In this document: positions 4,326 through 10,678 of the stretch, one piece after another
Layout: the number at the start of each line of letters is the position of its first letter
How positions within the stretch are numbered: the stretch's first letter is position 1
Assembly: GCF_020091585.1 (NCBI RefSeq)
Contig: NZ_CP083582.1
Coordinates: 3,038,001-3,102,000 of the forward strand
DNA length: 64,000 bases
Reading direction: 5' to 3'
DNA from: Kovacikia minuta CCNUW1
GTDB lineage: Bacteria > Cyanobacteriota > Cyanobacteriia > Leptolyngbyales > Leptolyngbyaceae
Notes under the pieces: model-generated
Told to the model about the DNA's origin: nothing
What the model saw: only the letters and a program-made list of their open reading frames with translations
The model's database searches: none
Translations under genes and position numbers: made by a program

Positions 4326-4646
4326 GGGGGGATTTGCGGAAATTACTTCTTTAGTATGCCAGAGGGAGCAGGTGTCAGTGTTAAGTGATGGGTGGTAGAG
4401 AAGGGATAAAGGATATAGCGATCCTCTCTGGATTGTGAAAGGACTTTCTCGGAGGGAAGACTTTCACAACTCTCCTTTTTCACAAATGATTCAGAACTGC
4501 TATAGCGTTTTCTGGTCTGCTGAGGTACACCCCACACCCTACACCCCACACCCCGTCTTAATTCGATGTACTTCACTTACACGAGAATTGCTATATATAA
4601 GGATAAAAAGGCAAAGGGCAGAAGGCGGGGAGCCAGTCACAAGAAT
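4326..4646. other. Gene-free stretch with short dispersed repeats
   Basis: Holds a CACCCCACACC-type repeat block (about 4523-4556), the same heptamer family as at 509-538, 32305-32335 and 51901-51945. No coding potential is evident. Confidence 0.5.
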
Positions 4647-4648
4647 TA

Positions 4649-4811
4649 TTAACCCGGCAGCTTTTGTTCCTACATATTTTGGAATTGCGCCATGATTGCG
4701 TAGGGTGCTGTTAGCGACAGCGTAACGCACCGAGGCGTGGGTTAGCGGTGCGTTACGGCGATGCCTAACAGCACCCTACAGCTCATGCTAGATCAAATAT
4801 TGCCAGGTTAA
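4649..4811. mobile_element. 163-bp MITE, copy 1
   Basis: Base-for-base identical to 10449-10611. The ends form an imperfect inverted repeat (TTAACCCGGCA and TGCCAGGTTAA), flanked on both sides by TA (4647-4648 and 4812-4813). The centre is a long palindrome, GTAGGGTGCTGTTAGCG...CTAACAGCACCCTAC, built from the common cyanobacterial GTAACGCACC repeat. TA-flanked ends fit mobilisation by an IS630/Tc1-mariner type transposase. No such transposase gene is in the window. Confidence 0.85.
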
Positions 4812-4882
4812 TAGTGTAAATCCCTAGGGCTAGCGCATACATTTCTTCATGTTTTAGGAACAGGTCTGGAGGACTGAGATAA

Positions 4883-5382: not shown

Positions 5383-6645
5383 TCAGGGCTGAACTTCGCG
5401 CAGCCGACGCTCCAGGAAGCGGCGTTCACTCTCATTTGTGGCCAGTTCCAGAGAGCGTGTATATCTGTGGGTCGCTTCCTGTAAGGCTCCAACACGGCGC
5501 AGTAAATCAGCACGAGTGGCATGGAACAGGTGATAGCTGTCGAGTTCAGCCGCCAGTCGATCGATGAGGGTAAGGGCTGCCTGGGGGCTATCTGCCATAG
5601 CGATTGCCACTGCCCGATTTAACGCAACGATCGGTGAAGGCTGCAAGCGTTCTAGCACATCATAGAGGCGCACAATTTGTACCCAATCTGTGTCTTCAGC
5701 TCGTACTGCCTGACAATGGAGGGCGGCGATCGCGGCTTGGAGGGCATAAACGCCCGTTCCACCACGCAACGCTTCTTCCACCAGAGGCAACGCCTCAGCA
5801 ATTTGGTGATGATTCCAACGGCTCCGATCCTGGTCTTCCAGCAGAACCAGATCCCCTGCCTTGTCCAAACGGGCAGCTCGGCGCGCATCGTGTAACAACA
5901 TCAGTGCCACCAGTGCTGTAACTTCTGAGGGGGGGTGGGGTGCCATCAATTGCCGCAGCAGTTGTCCCAGTCGAATCGCTTCGGTGCAGAGATCAGCTCG
6001 TACTATTGAATCTCCCTTCGTTGCTGCGTAGCCTTCGTTGAAGATGAGATAAATAACTGTCAGGACTGCCCCTATCCGAGGAGAGAGATCGGTTGTCTCT
6101 GGTACTTTGTAAGGAATGCCTGCGTCTCGAATTTTGCGTTTGGCACGGACTAACCGCTGTGCCATTGTTGCTGGGGGTACGAGAAATGCGCGGGCAATTT
6201 CGTCCGTTTCCAGTCCGCCCAACATTCGCAGTGTCAAAGCGACCTGAGTTTCGATCGCCAGTGCCGGATGGCAACAGGTGAAGATCAGGCGCAGGCGATC
6301 GTCTGGAATCTCATCACTGTCGTAGGTTGGCTCCTCACTTGATGGGATTAAACCGGATGCGGAGTACCATTCCAGTTTTTCCGTCAGTCGGGTCCGTCGT
6401 CGCAGGCGATCGATTGCCTTGTATCGAGCGGTTCGGATAATCCAGGCGCGGGGAAGACCGGGAATACCTGTAGATTGCCACTGATTCACAGCTGCCGCAA
6501 ACGCCTCCTGTGCGGCTTCTTCAGCCAGATCAAAATCTCCCACCAGCCGAATCAGGATAGCGACGATGCGCCCCCATTCAGCGCGATAAACGGAAGCAAT
6601 TGCCTGAGCAACATCGGATTTTGAGGTTGAAGCCATACCTGTCAT
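5383..6645 (-). CDS. ECF sigma factor of the ECF42 type (with C-terminal DUF6596 extension)
   Basis: About 420 residues. Region sigma2 (AEEAAQEAF ... ARYKAIDRLRRR) lies near the N-terminus and sigma4 (LTLRMLGGLETDEIARAF, then AQRLVRAKRKIRDAGIPY) follows. A long alpha-helical, TPR-like C-terminal extension distinguishes ECF42 from simple ECF factors. The usual partner is a DGPF/YCII protein, and one is encoded divergently at 6804. ECF42 factors have no classical anti-sigma factor; the extension is thought to control activity. The frame is open to 6726, but ATGs at 6645 and 6636 give the normal N-terminus, and starting there leaves the promoter-like site at 6673-6700 outside the coding region. 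Confidence 0.88.
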   Translation of the reverse strand: MTGMASTSKSDVAQAIASVYRAEWGRIVAILIRLVGDFDLAEEAAQEAFAAAVNQWQSTGIPGLPRAWIIRTARYKAIDRLRRRTRLTEKLEWYSASGLIPSSEEPTYDSDEIPDDRLRLIFTCCHPALAIETQVALTLRMLGGLETDEIARAFLVPPATMAQRLVRAKRKIRDAGIPYKVPETTDLSPRIGAVLTVIYLIFNEGYAATKGDSIVRADLCTEAIRLGQLLRQLMAPHPPSEVTALVALMLLHDARRAARLDKAGDLVLLEDQDRSRWNHHQIAEALPLVEEALRGGTGVYALQAAIAALHCQAVRAEDTDWVQIVRLYDVLERLQPSPIVALNRAVAIAMADSPQAALTLIDRLAAELDSYHLFHATRADLLRRVGALQEATHRYTRSLELATNESERRFLERRLREVQP

Positions 6646-6672
6646 AAAACGACACAAAAAGTTTGGGCAAAA

Positions 6673-6700
6673 TGTCGATTTGAGCGATTCCCGTTCGACT
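6673..6700 (+). promoter_or_regulatory. Candidate ECF42-dependent promoter, distal copy
   Basis: TGTCGA (6673-6678), a 17-nt spacer and CGACT (6696-6700). The -35 TGTCGA and a CGA-type -10 are what I recall for ECF42 in Streptomyces. It points toward the YCII gene and repeats the element 81 bp downstream. Confidence 0.6.
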
Positions 6701-6753
6701 GACAGACAAACGGAGTTAAAGTTCAATTGTACTAAATATTTTTTGCAGTCAGA

Positions 6754-6780
6754 TGTCGATTTGAGCGATCGGCATTCGAC
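6754..6780 (+). promoter_or_regulatory. Candidate ECF42-dependent promoter, proximal copy
   Basis: TGTCGA (6754-6759), a 17-nt spacer and CGAC (6777-6780), about 24 bp before the YCII start codon. Nearly all 29 positions of the surrounding block (6753-6781) match the distal copy at 6672-6700. Confidence 0.65.
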
Positions 6781-6803
6781 TTAACCACAAAGGAGGCAAC
6801 TGA

Positions 6804-7160
6804 ATGAAATATCTGCTGCTGATCTATATGGACGAAAACGTCCTGAGTGAAACTGAGCGGGAGCATTGCTATCTGGAATCTGCCCAACTCGTCCAGGAAC
6901 TCAATGCAAAGGGGCAATTTTTGGCAACTGCTCCGCTTCATCCCGTTGCAACGGCAACCAGTGTGCGGGTACGCGATGGCAAATCGCTTGTGACTGATGG
7001 TCCCTTTGCCGAAACCCGTGAACAATTGGGCGGGTTCTTCTTCGTCAATGCCCAGGATTTGGATGAGGCAATTGCGATCGCCGCTCAAATTCCAGGAGCA
7101 AGAGCTGGCACCGTCGAGATCCGTCCCGTGCTTGAAGTTGCGGGACTTCCAAAACCCTGA
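6804..7160 (+). CDS. YCII/DGPF-domain protein
   Basis: A 118-residue single-domain protein with the ferredoxin-like YCII fold. It starts MKYLLLIYMDE and carries VTDGPFAETREQLGGFF, the DGPF motif that names the family, then ARAGTVEIRPV. A strong ribosome site AAAGGAGG lies 7 nt upstream. DGPF proteins are the hallmark partners of ECF42 sigma factors; their biochemical role is not settled. First gene of a six-gene same-strand cluster behind two ECF42-type promoters. Confidence 0.92.
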   Translation: MKYLLLIYMDENVLSETEREHCYLESAQLVQELNAKGQFLATAPLHPVATATSVRVRDGKSLVTDGPFAETREQLGGFFFVNAQDLDEAIAIAAQIPGARAGTVEIRPVLEVAGLPKP

Positions 7161-7214
7161 TGTTGGTGCTCCAGCCATCACTAATTTGAACCTCAAACCA
7201 AAGGAGAAATGACC

Positions 7215-7658
7215 ATGACTACTGCAAGCACAAGCACAACCCACGAAGCTGAGATTCGTCAATTGGTTGCCGATCAACAACATGCCATTTGCACCAAAGA
7301 TGTGGATCAAATTCTGTCTCGCTATGCCACTGCGATCGTGATTTTTGATGTCAAGCCACCTTTCCAAACCCAGGGTAAAGAAGCGGTTCGTCAACTGTGG
7401 GAAGACTGTTTGCCTTACTTTCCAGATTCATTTGAGATGGAAACACGCGACCTAACCATTACCGCTAATGATGAAATAGCCACTGCCCACTGGTTGTTTC
7501 GCCTTAAGGGCGAGCAAGAGCACCCTGCCATGCAAATGTGGATGCGTGCCACCGCTGTGTGCCAGAAGCACCAGGGCAATTGGCAGATTCTACATGAACA
7601 CATCTCAGTCCCCTTTGATCCTTCCAATGCTCAAGCGGTCTTTACCCTCAACCCCTGA
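7215..7658 (+). CDS. NTF2-like (SnoaL/ketosteroid-isomerase-type) protein
   Basis: About 147 residues. EAEIRQLVADQQHAICTKDV, a central strand with IVIFDVKPP and the closing WQILHEHISVPF are typical of the SgcJ/EcaC-like NTF2 fold, a cone that binds small hydrophobic ligands. Two ATGs compete: at 7209 the ribosome site GGAG is only 2 nt away, at 7215 it is 8 nt away, so 7215 is preferred. Part of the ECF42-linked cluster, 54 bp after the YCII gene. Substrate unknown. Confidence 0.82.
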   Translation: MTTASTSTTHEAEIRQLVADQQHAICTKDVDQILSRYATAIVIFDVKPPFQTQGKEAVRQLWEDCLPYFPDSFEMETRDLTITANDEIATAHWLFRLKGEQEHPAMQMWMRATAVCQKHQGNWQILHEHISVPFDPSNAQAVFTLNP

Positions 7659-8015: not shown

Positions 8016-8426
8016 ATGAAAATCAATCCCTATCTCATGTTTGATGGCAACTGTGAGGCAGCATTCAAGTTCTACGAGCAATGTCTCGGTGGCAAAATCA
8101 CCATGATGATGAGTCATAAAGAGGCACCTTCCGCGGAAGGTGTTCCACCTGAGTGGCATGACAAGATCATGCATGCCTGCCTGGATTTAGGCGATCGCCT
8201 CCTGATGGGGTCGGACTGCCCACCGGGATATTTTGAAATGCTCCAGGGCTTTTATGTACAGGTTAGCGTTCCCGAAGCAGCCGAGGCAGAACGGATTTTT
8301 TACGCTCTGGCAGAAAACGGCAAGGTGAAAATGCCGATCGCCCAAACCTTTTGGTCTGTCCGCTTTGGCATGTTAAATGATCAGTTCGGTACACCGTGGA
8401 TGGTCAACTGTGAGCAGGTGGTTTAA
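8016..8426 (+). CDS. PhnB-like VOC-family protein
   Basis: A 136-residue PhnB/3-demethylubiquinone-methyltransferase-like member of the vicinal oxygen chelate superfamily. Landmarks: INPYLMFDGNCEAAFKFYE at the start, the central MHACLDLGDRLLMGSD, and the closing WSVRFGMLNDQFGTPWMVNC. No phosphonate genes are nearby, so a role in phosphonate use is not implied. The frame is open from 7977, but TTAGGAG lies 8 nt before the ATG at 8016 and homologues begin there. Confidence 0.88.
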   Translation: MKINPYLMFDGNCEAAFKFYEQCLGGKITMMMSHKEAPSAEGVPPEWHDKIMHACLDLGDRLLMGSDCPPGYFEMLQGFYVQVSVPEAAEAERIFYALAENGKVKMPIAQTFWSVRFGMLNDQFGTPWMVNCEQVV

Positions 8427-8500: not shown

Positions 8501-8935
8501 ATGAGCACTCAAATTTTCGTCAATCTACCTGTCAAAAATCTTAAGCAATCGATCGAGTTTTTCACCCAACTTGGCTTTCAGTTCAATCCCCAATTTACTG
8601 ATGAGACTGCTACCTGCATGGTTGTCTCGGAGACAATCTTCGTGATGCTTTTGACCCATGAGAAGTTCAAGACATTCACGCCAAATGAGATCTGTGATAC
8701 TACCCAAAATACTGAAGTATTGGTGTGTTTATCGGTTGAGAGCCGCGCAAAAGTGGATGAGATGATTCGTGAAGCTGTTACTGCGGGTGGCACAACCTAT
8801 AGCGAACCCCAGGAACACGGGTTCATGTACGCCCACGGGTTTCAAGATTTAGATGGTCACATTTGGGAACTGGTGTATATGGAACCCAGTACCATCGACC
8901 AGGCTGAATCTGCCAAGAAAAAGGTAGAGGTGTAA
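8501..8935 (+). CDS. Glyoxalase/bleomycin-resistance-like VOC protein
   Basis: A 144-residue VOC protein of the lactoylglutathione-lyase-related type: FVNLPVKNLKQSIEFFTQLG at the N-terminus and FQDLDGHIWELVYMEPS at the C-terminus, which holds the usual metal-ligand Glu. AGGAG precedes the ATG. It is 74 bp after the PhnB-like gene in the same direction. Exact substrate unknown; detoxification is the usual guess for this family. Confidence 0.88.
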   Translation: MSTQIFVNLPVKNLKQSIEFFTQLGFQFNPQFTDETATCMVVSETIFVMLLTHEKFKTFTPNEICDTTQNTEVLVCLSVESRAKVDEMIREAVTAGGTTYSEPQEHGFMYAHGFQDLDGHIWELVYMEPSTIDQAESAKKKVEV

Positions 8936-9004: not shown

Positions 9005-9733
9005 ATGATTAAGAACAAAATTGCACATCCAAAAATCGTTGGGAAAACCGAGTGGCTCACTGCTCGTAAAACATTACTTGAACACGAGAAAGAATTAACC
9101 AAGCACCACGATCGCGTCAATGCTGAACGACGCAGGCTACCAATGGTCAAACTTGAGAAAGAATACACCTTTGAAGAACCAAATGGCTCTGCCAAACTGA
9201 TCGATTTATTTGTAGGACGCACCCAACTGATCATCTACCATTTTATGTTTGCTCCGGAGTGGGAGAAGGGCTGTATGGGCTGTACTGGGTTTGTGAATGC
9301 CCTGGGCGACCTATCCATGTTGAACGAGCGCGACACAACCTTTGTGCTTGTTTCCCGTGCTCCCCTACCCAAATTGGAAGCCTATAAGCAGTTAAAGGGA
9401 TGGACTGTCCCCTGGTATTCTTCCTCTGGCAGCGATTTCAACTACGATTTCCATGTCACCTTAGACGAAAACATTACACCCATCCAATACAACTACCGAG
9501 ACAAGGCAGAGTTGACGGAACGCCACGGACCGAATGTGATGCAGGGCGAGAGCCACGGTCTCAGCGTTTTCTTCCGAATCGATAACGATGTTTTCCACAC
9601 CTACTCGACCTATGCCCGTGGGGTTGAATCCCTTACGGATACCTACAGTCTTCTTGATGTGACCCCCTATGGACGGCAGGAAGACTTTGAAGACTCACCG
9701 CCTGGGTGGCCACAACGCCCGACCTATGGGTAG
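9005..9733 (+). CDS. DUF899 thioredoxin-fold protein
   Basis: A 242-residue DUF899 protein. N-terminal helix [23 protein letters not shown], the strand [16 protein letters not shown], a CMGC pair in place of a thioredoxin CxxC, and the closing [14 protein letters not shown] and [11 protein letters not shown] are family features. It probably binds thiols or peroxides, but no activity is established. The start at 9005 has GGAG 6 nt upstream; a TTG at 8948 and an ATG at 8993 in the same frame are less well placed. DUF899 proteins often sit next to DGPF/VOC genes. Confidence 0.88.
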
Positions 9734-9803: not shown

Positions 9804-10319
9804 ATGGAAACGACCCAAACCGAACAAACCTCACCCATGCCTGCTCAACCGCAAAAAGAACATCAGTGGCTCCAGAAACTCATCGGGGAGTGGACCTTTG
9901 AAATCGAAGCAATGATGGGTCCCGATCAACCTCCCGAAAAATCAACGGGAACGGAGATTGTGCGTTCCCTGGGCGAACTTTGGATTTTGGCGGAAGGACA
10001 GGGAGAAATGCCTGGTTGTGGTCAGACAACAACCCTGATGACCCTGGGCTACGACCCACAGAAACAGCGTTATGTGGGCACCTGGATCGGATCAATGATG
10101 ACATATCTGTGGCAATACGATGGTGAATTGGATGCCGGGGAAACCATACTAACGCTCAATTCTGATGGACCTGCCATGACGGGTGACGAGAAAATAGGCA
10201 AGTACAAAGATGTGATCGAGTTCAAGAGCGACGATCACCGAACCTTGACCTCGCATATGTTGAGGGATGATGGGCAGTGGCAGCACTTTATGACCGCCCA
10301 TTATTGGCGGAAGCAGTAG
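9804..10319 (+). CDS. DUF1579 protein
   Basis: A 171-residue DUF1579 member. KEHQWLQKLIGEWTFEIEA opens the domain; GEGQGEMPG-like GQGEMPGCG, TLGYDPQKQRYVGTWI and GSMMTYLWQYDG follow; it ends in HYWRKQ. The fold is probably a lipocalin-like barrel, function unknown. AAGGAG sits 8 nt before the ATG. Last gene of the ECF42-linked set. A hairpin and the second MITE copy follow directly. Confidence 0.88.
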   Translation: METTQTEQTSPMPAQPQKEHQWLQKLIGEWTFEIEAMMGPDQPPEKSTGTEIVRSLGELWILAEGQGEMPGCGQTTTLMTLGYDPQKQRYVGTWIGSMMTYLWQYDGELDAGETILTLNSDGPAMTGDEKIGKYKDVIEFKSDDHRTLTSHMLRDDGQWQHFMTAHYWRKQ

Positions 10320-10438: not shown

Positions 10439-10448
10439 GGAAGAGGTA

Positions 10449-10611
10449 TTAACCCGGCAGCTTTTGTTCCTACATATTTTGGAATTGCGCCATGATTGCG
10501 TAGGGTGCTGTTAGCGACAGCGTAACGCACCGAGGCGTGGGTTAGCGGTGCGTTACGGCGATGCCTAACAGCACCCTACAGCTCATGCTAGATCAAATAT
10601 TGCCAGGTTAA
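10449..10611. mobile_element. 163-bp MITE, copy 2
   Basis: Identical to 4649-4811, in the same orientation, with TA on both sides (10447-10448, 10612-10613). The absence of any difference between two copies 5.8 kb apart points to recent transposition or gene conversion. Confidence 0.85.
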
Positions 10612-10678
10612 TAGCAGACGACGGATCGCTACAGCTACACTAATGGCTGTTAAAACTGGGGAATAAAAACCTGTTCCT

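Follow-up and report, generated by a model that had tools for sequence, protein, structure and literature searches.

The window (the whole stretch of 64,000 nucleotides that was analysed, from the cyanobacterium Kovacikia minuta CCNUW1) contains a gene for a sigma factor of the ECF42 type and, divergent from it, a cluster of genes led by one for a DGPF/YCII-domain protein (Table 1). The sigma open reading frame (ORF) begins with an ATG at position 6636, and between it and the DGPF gene lie two promoter-like sites, referred to here as site 1 and site 2. The whole sigma/DGPF cluster is bracketed by a 174-bp repeat in direct orientation (99% identical; 4641–4814 and 10441–10614). Allowing up to 3 mismatches, the 45-nt core of this repeat occurs 42 times in the genome, and 36 of these copies are perfect. 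Its ends, TATTAACC and GGTTAATA as judged by eye, suggest a recently active MITE-like element.

Table 1. Predicted features of the sigma/DGPF region (feature, positions in the window, strand, remarks)
ECF42-type sigma factor	5383..6636	-	417 aa; regions 2 and 4; C-terminal extension with DUF6596
Stretch with A+T-rich tract, upstream of site 1	6653..6672	+	
Site 1 (upstream ECF42-type promoter, predicted)	6673..6699	+	-35 TGTCGA 6673-6678, 17-nt spacer, -10 CGAC 6696-6699
Inter-site element AATTGTACT (often GATCGTACT at other loci)	6725..6733	.	- strand reads TACAAT or TACGAT
Stretch with A+T-rich tract, upstream of site 2	6734..6753	+	
Site 2 (downstream ECF42-type promoter, predicted)	6754..6780	+	-35 TGTCGA 6754-6759, 17-nt spacer, -10 CGAC 6777-6780
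Shine-Dalgarno-like AAGGAGG ahead of DGPF gene	6790..6796	+	
DGPF/YCII-domain protein, first gene of target cluster	6804..7160	+	Pfam YCII PF03795, 2.1e-22
SnoaL-like protein	7209..7658	+	
Glyoxalase-fold (3-dmu-9_3-mt) protein	8016..8426	+	
Glyoxalase/bleomycin-resistance-like protein	8501..8935	+	
DUF899 protein	9005..9733	+	
DUF1579 protein	9804..10319	+	

The sigma protein has sigma-70 regions 2 and 4 without region 3, as is characteristic of ECF42 (PF04542 and PF08281 above cut-off in Pfam). The sole further Pfam match at E 0.001 is DUF6596, at residues 187–289, in a C-terminal extension that brings the total to 417 aa. Extensions of ECF42 factors span about 200 residues and carry TPR-type repeats; in the window's factor, no TPR family was found in Pfam at E 0.001. 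Among the best 25 of 40 NCBIfam models, only the sigma70-ECF superfamily model was above cut-off. A YCII/DGPF gene lies beside the sigma gene, also as in ECF42 systems, and DGPF-like domain matches occur at 85 of the 92 loci examined. Promoters of ECF42 factors have a -35 of TGTCG, about 17 nt and a -10 of CG(A/T)C upstream of the target, and sites 1 and 2, compared with the promoters listed in PMC6180224, show this arrangement.

The sequence-only reading had described TGTCGA, 17 nt and CGAC as occurring twice, 81 bp apart and pointing at the DGPF cluster, and both copies are there: site 1 (TGTCGATTTGAGCGATTCCCGTTCGAC) and site 2 (TGTCGATTTGAGCGATCGGCATTCGAC) are on the forward strand, with 81 bp between their starts, and read toward the DGPF/YCII gene. 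Each is an imperfect palindrome, and the two are contained in a 39-nt direct repeat of 79% identity. A Shine-Dalgarno-like stretch, weaker than that ahead of the DGPF gene, is also present after site 1. If the last base of the listed S. meliloti RpoE10 promoter, 8 nt past CGTC (PMC6180224), is taken as the start, then transcription would be predicted to begin near 6708 (site 1) and near 6789 (site 2).

The short form TGTCGA-N15..19-CGA has seven matches in the window against 1.48 expected, a number reached by 0 of 100 shuffles; only two of the seven are sites 1 and 2. Across the genome, the loose form TGTCGA-N16..18-CGAC gives fewer matches (17) than its backwards-read control (50), and is therefore uninformative alone. 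In the 8.56-Mb genome, the extended motif TGTCGATYT-N13-TCGACTNA is matched perfectly four times, never with one mismatch and 13 times with two; its backwards-read control has nine matches in all at up to two mismatches. The four perfect matches make up two tandem pairs, namely that of the window and a second one 83 bp apart (G000:C1:6998312 and 6998395) in a decayed copy of the locus (L009). The decayed duplicate (L009:8099-9081, in G000:C1:6990000-7008000) comprises a sigma remnant, the intact tandem sites and a remnant of the DGPF start: the first 38 residues of the sigma factor (63% identical) and the first DGPF codons remain, followed by an intact YCII gene.

The window's sigma factor belongs to a cyanobacterial clade (clade A; 80–90% identical in the matches listed), for which 40 loci were collected and 36 kept after removal of those with identical first 200 nt. 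The 40 do not include L013 and L015, which duplicate L117 and L104, or a broken copy in genome G283; the stretch of L112 (genome G316) is the same as that of L024, a Pantanalinema bin of Cyanobacteriota. Two or more sites of the form TGTCGA-N17-[CT]GA are found in 33 of the 36 loci. At up to 3 of 13 mismatches, 35 of 36 have at least two (two in 25, three in nine and four in one), the same search giving 3 matches in the reversed clade A sequences. The lone exception, L142, has a single perfect site adjoining the sigma gene, and there is no DGPF gene in the 4.25 kb seen. Between the first site and the estimated sigma start there are 24–39 bp at 33 of 36 loci (31 of 36 have an ATG at that place). 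A DGPF start was identified at 31 loci, and it lies 50–51 bp from the last site at 22 of them, 59–60 bp at seven and 72–74 bp at two. The array units repeat an A+T tract, the -35, the -10 and a Shine-Dalgarno-like stretch. Neighbouring strict sites are separated by 40 gaps, none of them shorter than 81 bp; at L014, a weak extra site lies 52 bp from its neighbour. Helical phasing was considered, as the gaps cluster at 81–83 and 92–96 bp and the end distances also have two modes, but is not claimed, because in-between values (85, 87, 89 and 90 bp) occur and the loci are related.

The sites also follow the sigma gene from genome to genome within the order. The order sample had 42 genomes: 21 with a clade A or clade B sigma gene, three with only the distant clade C, and 18 with none at E 1e-60. 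The motif TGTCGATYT-N13-TCGACT occurs in 20 of the 21 genomes with a clade A or B gene and in none of the 21 others (Fisher p 8e-11, a test that ignores kinship), and the backwards-read control has no match in any of the 42. In the exception, G283, the sigma gene is broken and the surrounding 4 kb lack a site.

Outside clade A, the motif was examined in loci from a genome-contig scan, using the best 80 of a larger number of sigma relatives; 79 of these (L025-L103, including three clade B cyanobacteria) are outside the window's sigma clade. Among the 79 listed, TGTCGA-N16/17-CG[AT] stands within 150 nt upstream of 56 of 111 DGPF-like ORFs, at 50 of 74 testable loci, compared with a mean of 0.38 and a maximum of 3 in 200 shuffles and with 1 on the opposite strand; the other 24 testable loci listed have no site within 150 nt upstream of a DGPF-like ORF. 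The spacer is 17 in 47 of the 56 sites, CTA is what most often follows CGA or CGT (32 of 56), and A+T content peaks about 11–18 nt before TGTCGA. At 28 listed loci (L017 and 27 of L025-L103), no DGPF-like ORF has a site within 300 nt, and half of these loci (14) have TGTCGA-N16/17-CGAC[TA] elsewhere outside the sigma gene.

The suggestion that promoter recognition by ECF42 factors may be conserved between phyla is supported, in that the motif precedes DGPF-like genes in several phyla. The sharing is not a new idea, because the motifs of the S. meliloti (Sinorhizobium) factor RpoE10 are stated in PMC6180224 to match those predicted for group ECF42. The sequence-only reading had also given TGTCGA with a CGA-type -10 as the actinobacterial motif. 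TGTCGA is borne out by the actinobacterial loci listed, the CGA-type -10 is not: a site is present in nine of these 11 loci (eight before a DGPF-like ORF; L075 elsewhere in the locus), and all nine end in CGT. CGT is also found in three Chloroflexota loci and a Rokubacteria locus, and the remaining listed loci have mostly CGA. Residue 72 of the sigma factor was considered as the setter of this third -10 base: of the 76 CGA rows, 64 have F or Y there, as do 0 of 20 CGT rows (labels by a scoring rule, five set by hand, the mixed L066 set aside and other unlabelled loci uncounted). This was rejected as phylogenetically confounded; the correlation is not independent evidence, because the label changes only once on the sigma tree.

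What looks particular to clade A is the stacking of sites. Two strict sites within 400 nt upstream of one DGPF-like ORF occur at only two of the 79 listed loci outside the clade (L037 and L066). In a quick sigma tree, clade A is one group (support 100) inside a larger group of 20 rows with L025-L030 (SH-aLRT 98). As the related L025-L030 have one site on the sigma side, the amplification most plausibly took place in the founder of the cyanobacterial clade.

Arrays also occur without an intact sigma gene next to them. Strict sites are kept in arrays beside a broken or absent sigma gene at three loci: the decayed L009; L196 (G310:C106), where a pair of sites before a DGPF cluster lies beside an apparently truncated sigma gene; and L197 (G316:C23, reverse strand), where a triple array precedes a DGPF cluster and a glyoxalase gene takes the place of the sigma gene on the other side. 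Therefore, the array goes with the target cluster and, judging from these arrangements, could be served in trans by a sigma factor encoded elsewhere. Genome G316 also has a sigma-linked array. Separately, a single ECF42-type site precedes a glutathione S-transferase gene at L198 (G054) and L199 (G321), and is conserved between both genomes.

The sequence-only reading had taken sites 1 and 2 for tandem ECF42-type promoters. This is backed by their position, by the co-occurrence with the sigma gene across the order, by the motif in other phyla and by the match to the RpoE10 promoters listed in PMC6180224. We regard it as highly likely, from the comparison of sequences, that the locus carries tandem ECF42 promoters reading into the DGPF cluster, that they derive from duplication of a unit and that the copies have been kept. 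The neighbouring sigma factor very probably recognises the stacked copies. RNA polymerase with this factor would transcribe the DGPF-led cluster from both sites. The leader from site 2 would be about 15 nt long and contain AAGGAGG, and that from site 1 would be about 96 nt long and cross site 2. The pair would have arisen by duplication of the whole unit (A+T tract, -35, -10 and Shine-Dalgarno-like stretch), probably in an ancestor of one cyanobacterial sigma clade. The two to four copies per locus would then have been kept, most likely since having several of them increases or stabilises expression of a dedicated, very small regulon. The recognition by this particular factor, the positions of the starts and the explanation for the number of copies are what we infer. 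Tandem stacking seems to be customary in this cyanobacterial group and to have been retained by selection.

Perhaps only site 2 works, and site 1 is a relic of the tandem duplication. The stretch between the sites does resemble a copy of the stretch from promoter to start codon, and middle sites of longer arrays are looser (pairwise core divergence 0.089, n=9; 7 of 9 perfect), some being degenerate. However, across 31 loci the divergence of the ten core bases is about the same for the first site (0.019; core perfect in 30 of 31) as for the last (0.012; 31 of 31). The corresponding values are 0.276–0.315 for spacers, 0.40–0.44 for flanks and 0.451 for the third positions of sigma codons; the site search tolerated up to 4 of 13 mismatches, which biases the core values low to some degree. 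The upstream site is very unlikely to be a relic, because its core is nearly invariant while the flanks drift. It is also very unlikely that a dimeric repressor or activator uses the sites as its operators, an idea suggested by their GTCGA and TCGAC ends, an inverted repeat with a spacing of about two helical turns, by the fact that operators are commonly repeated, and by the T before CGA in 75 of 76 strict clade A sites, which preserves the dyad. That dyad is lost elsewhere: in 40 sites outside clade A and L025-L030 the base before CGAC is T in 18, A in 17, G in four and C in one, and the sites of actinobacteria and of clade C have CGT at their end. A single orientation, a narrow distance to the gene, the upstream A+T peak and the match to the RpoE10 promoters in PMC6180224 also point to promoters rather than operators.

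The palindromic character bears equally on whether the sites are bidirectional, site 1 also driving the sigma gene in positive autoregulation. The statement of the sequence-only reading that no such site faces the sigma gene is true of the strict motif, and the reverse reading of both sites, AGTCGA-N17-CGAC, is one base off it. Site 1 is separated from the start codon of the sigma gene by 36 bp, the corresponding site of six relatives outside the cyanobacteria (L025-L030) is 17–19 bp from the estimated sigma start, and L142, without a DGPF gene by its sigma gene, retains just the sigma-proximal site. Base conservation makes this reading unlikely. Of 79 clade A sites, 77 have T as the first -35 base, as do 41 of 44 others, and the reverse has A there when T follows CGAC (76 of 79), so reading in reverse is probably weak; moreover, three of the six divergent loci outside the cyanobacteria (L028-L030) have CGATTC, without even GTCGA in reverse. 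Positive feedback is possible at 14 other loci, in which a site, the DGPF gene and the sigma gene follow each other on the same strand.

In the window, the sigma gene's own promoter must overlap site 1 or lie beyond it, and thus an occupied site 1 could repress the sigma gene. A candidate lies in the inter-site unit, in which GTAC is present in 30 of 34 aligned units and GTACT in 26, usually as (G/A)AT(C/T)GTACT. On the reverse strand this sequence reads TAC(A/G)AT, possibly a -10 toward the sigma gene; the same letters are also kept in one of the two units of the sigma-less G316 array. A sigma-70 consensus scan found no promoter at the inter-site element (6725-6733); its one weak match, roughly what chance would give, spans the sigma start codon. 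The idea that GTACT belongs to a LexA box was set aside, as the other half misfits and varies between loci (by eye, against the consensus). The footprint of RNA polymerase is about 75 bp. The strict gaps of at least 81 bp are just over one such footprint, which could allow two or more ECF42 holoenzymes to bind next to one another. One might, tentatively and with considerable doubt, picture the array as a compact control element that tunes a one-sigma regulon through the number of its promoters, and in which a sigma promoter at the TAC(A/G)AT of the unit nearest the sigma gene is shut by holoenzyme at site 1, giving negative feedback.

The same genome encodes a second DUF6596 sigma factor (clade C; L152), 38% identical to that of the window. 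As in the window, L152 combines a DUF6596 sigma factor, a YCII gene and a promoter-like site with TGTCGA-N17, but the -10 is CGTCATA instead of CGAC. The site, TGTCGAAAT-N14-CGTCATA, precedes the YCII gene, and the gene order is YCII, GST, sigma. In the seven clade C loci examined (L152 and L159-L164), TGTCGA-N17-CGTC stands before the YCII gene in six and CGTT takes its place in one (L164); the full CGTCATA is present in five. The clade C motif has one perfect match in its own genome and three with 2 mismatches, the control having eight. Residue 72 of clade C sigma factors is H, N or R and that of CGA-type factors mostly F or Y, a difference that is phylogenetically confounded. Two DUF6596 sigma factors in one genome, whose promoter-like sites have TGTCGA in common and differ in the -10 (CGAC vs CGTC), provide a ready test of cross-talk.

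ECF42 factors are widespread, and we know of no established signal for them. Since the perfect extended matches in this genome are just two tandem pairs, it offers a clean system for finding the stimulus of its ECF42-type factor. The one to four copies found at the same locus in related species are natural variation that bears on why bacteria stack near-identical promoters. A conserved tandem ECF42 arrangement was not found in print in the open-access literature searched; the conserved tandem array looks new, and the motif itself is known from other phyla.

The closest known group is ECF42, with S. meliloti RpoE10, S. venezuelae Sven_0747 and others, and P. putida ECF-10. The likeness to the group as described in PMC8999054 lies in the long C-terminal extension past the sigma regions and in the adjacent YCII/DGPF gene. 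Among the relatives studied here, L025-L030 (Acidobacteriota, Myxococcota and one bin titled Pseudomonadota) come near in having an outward-facing site just upstream of a divergent sigma gene, with a DGPF-like ORF within 50 nt after the site in four of the six; they differ in that the gap on the sigma side holds a single site and no array, although L025 has another site before another DGPF-like ORF. Promoters were compared with those of S. meliloti only, as mapped for RpoE10 in PMC6180224 (TGTCGG-N17-CGTC), and agree in the TGTCG -35, the 17-nt spacer and the CG(A/T)C -10. According to the results given there, over-expression of RpoE10 raised only other motif-bearing genes; the DGPF/YCII gene, in which the motif overlaps the start, showed no increase. 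The arrangement also differs: as described in PMC6180224, rpoE10 of S. meliloti is downstream of the YCII gene and predicted to be co-transcribed with it, with one motif per gene, whereas in clade A the sigma gene is divergent and two to four sites are stacked ahead of the DGPF cluster.
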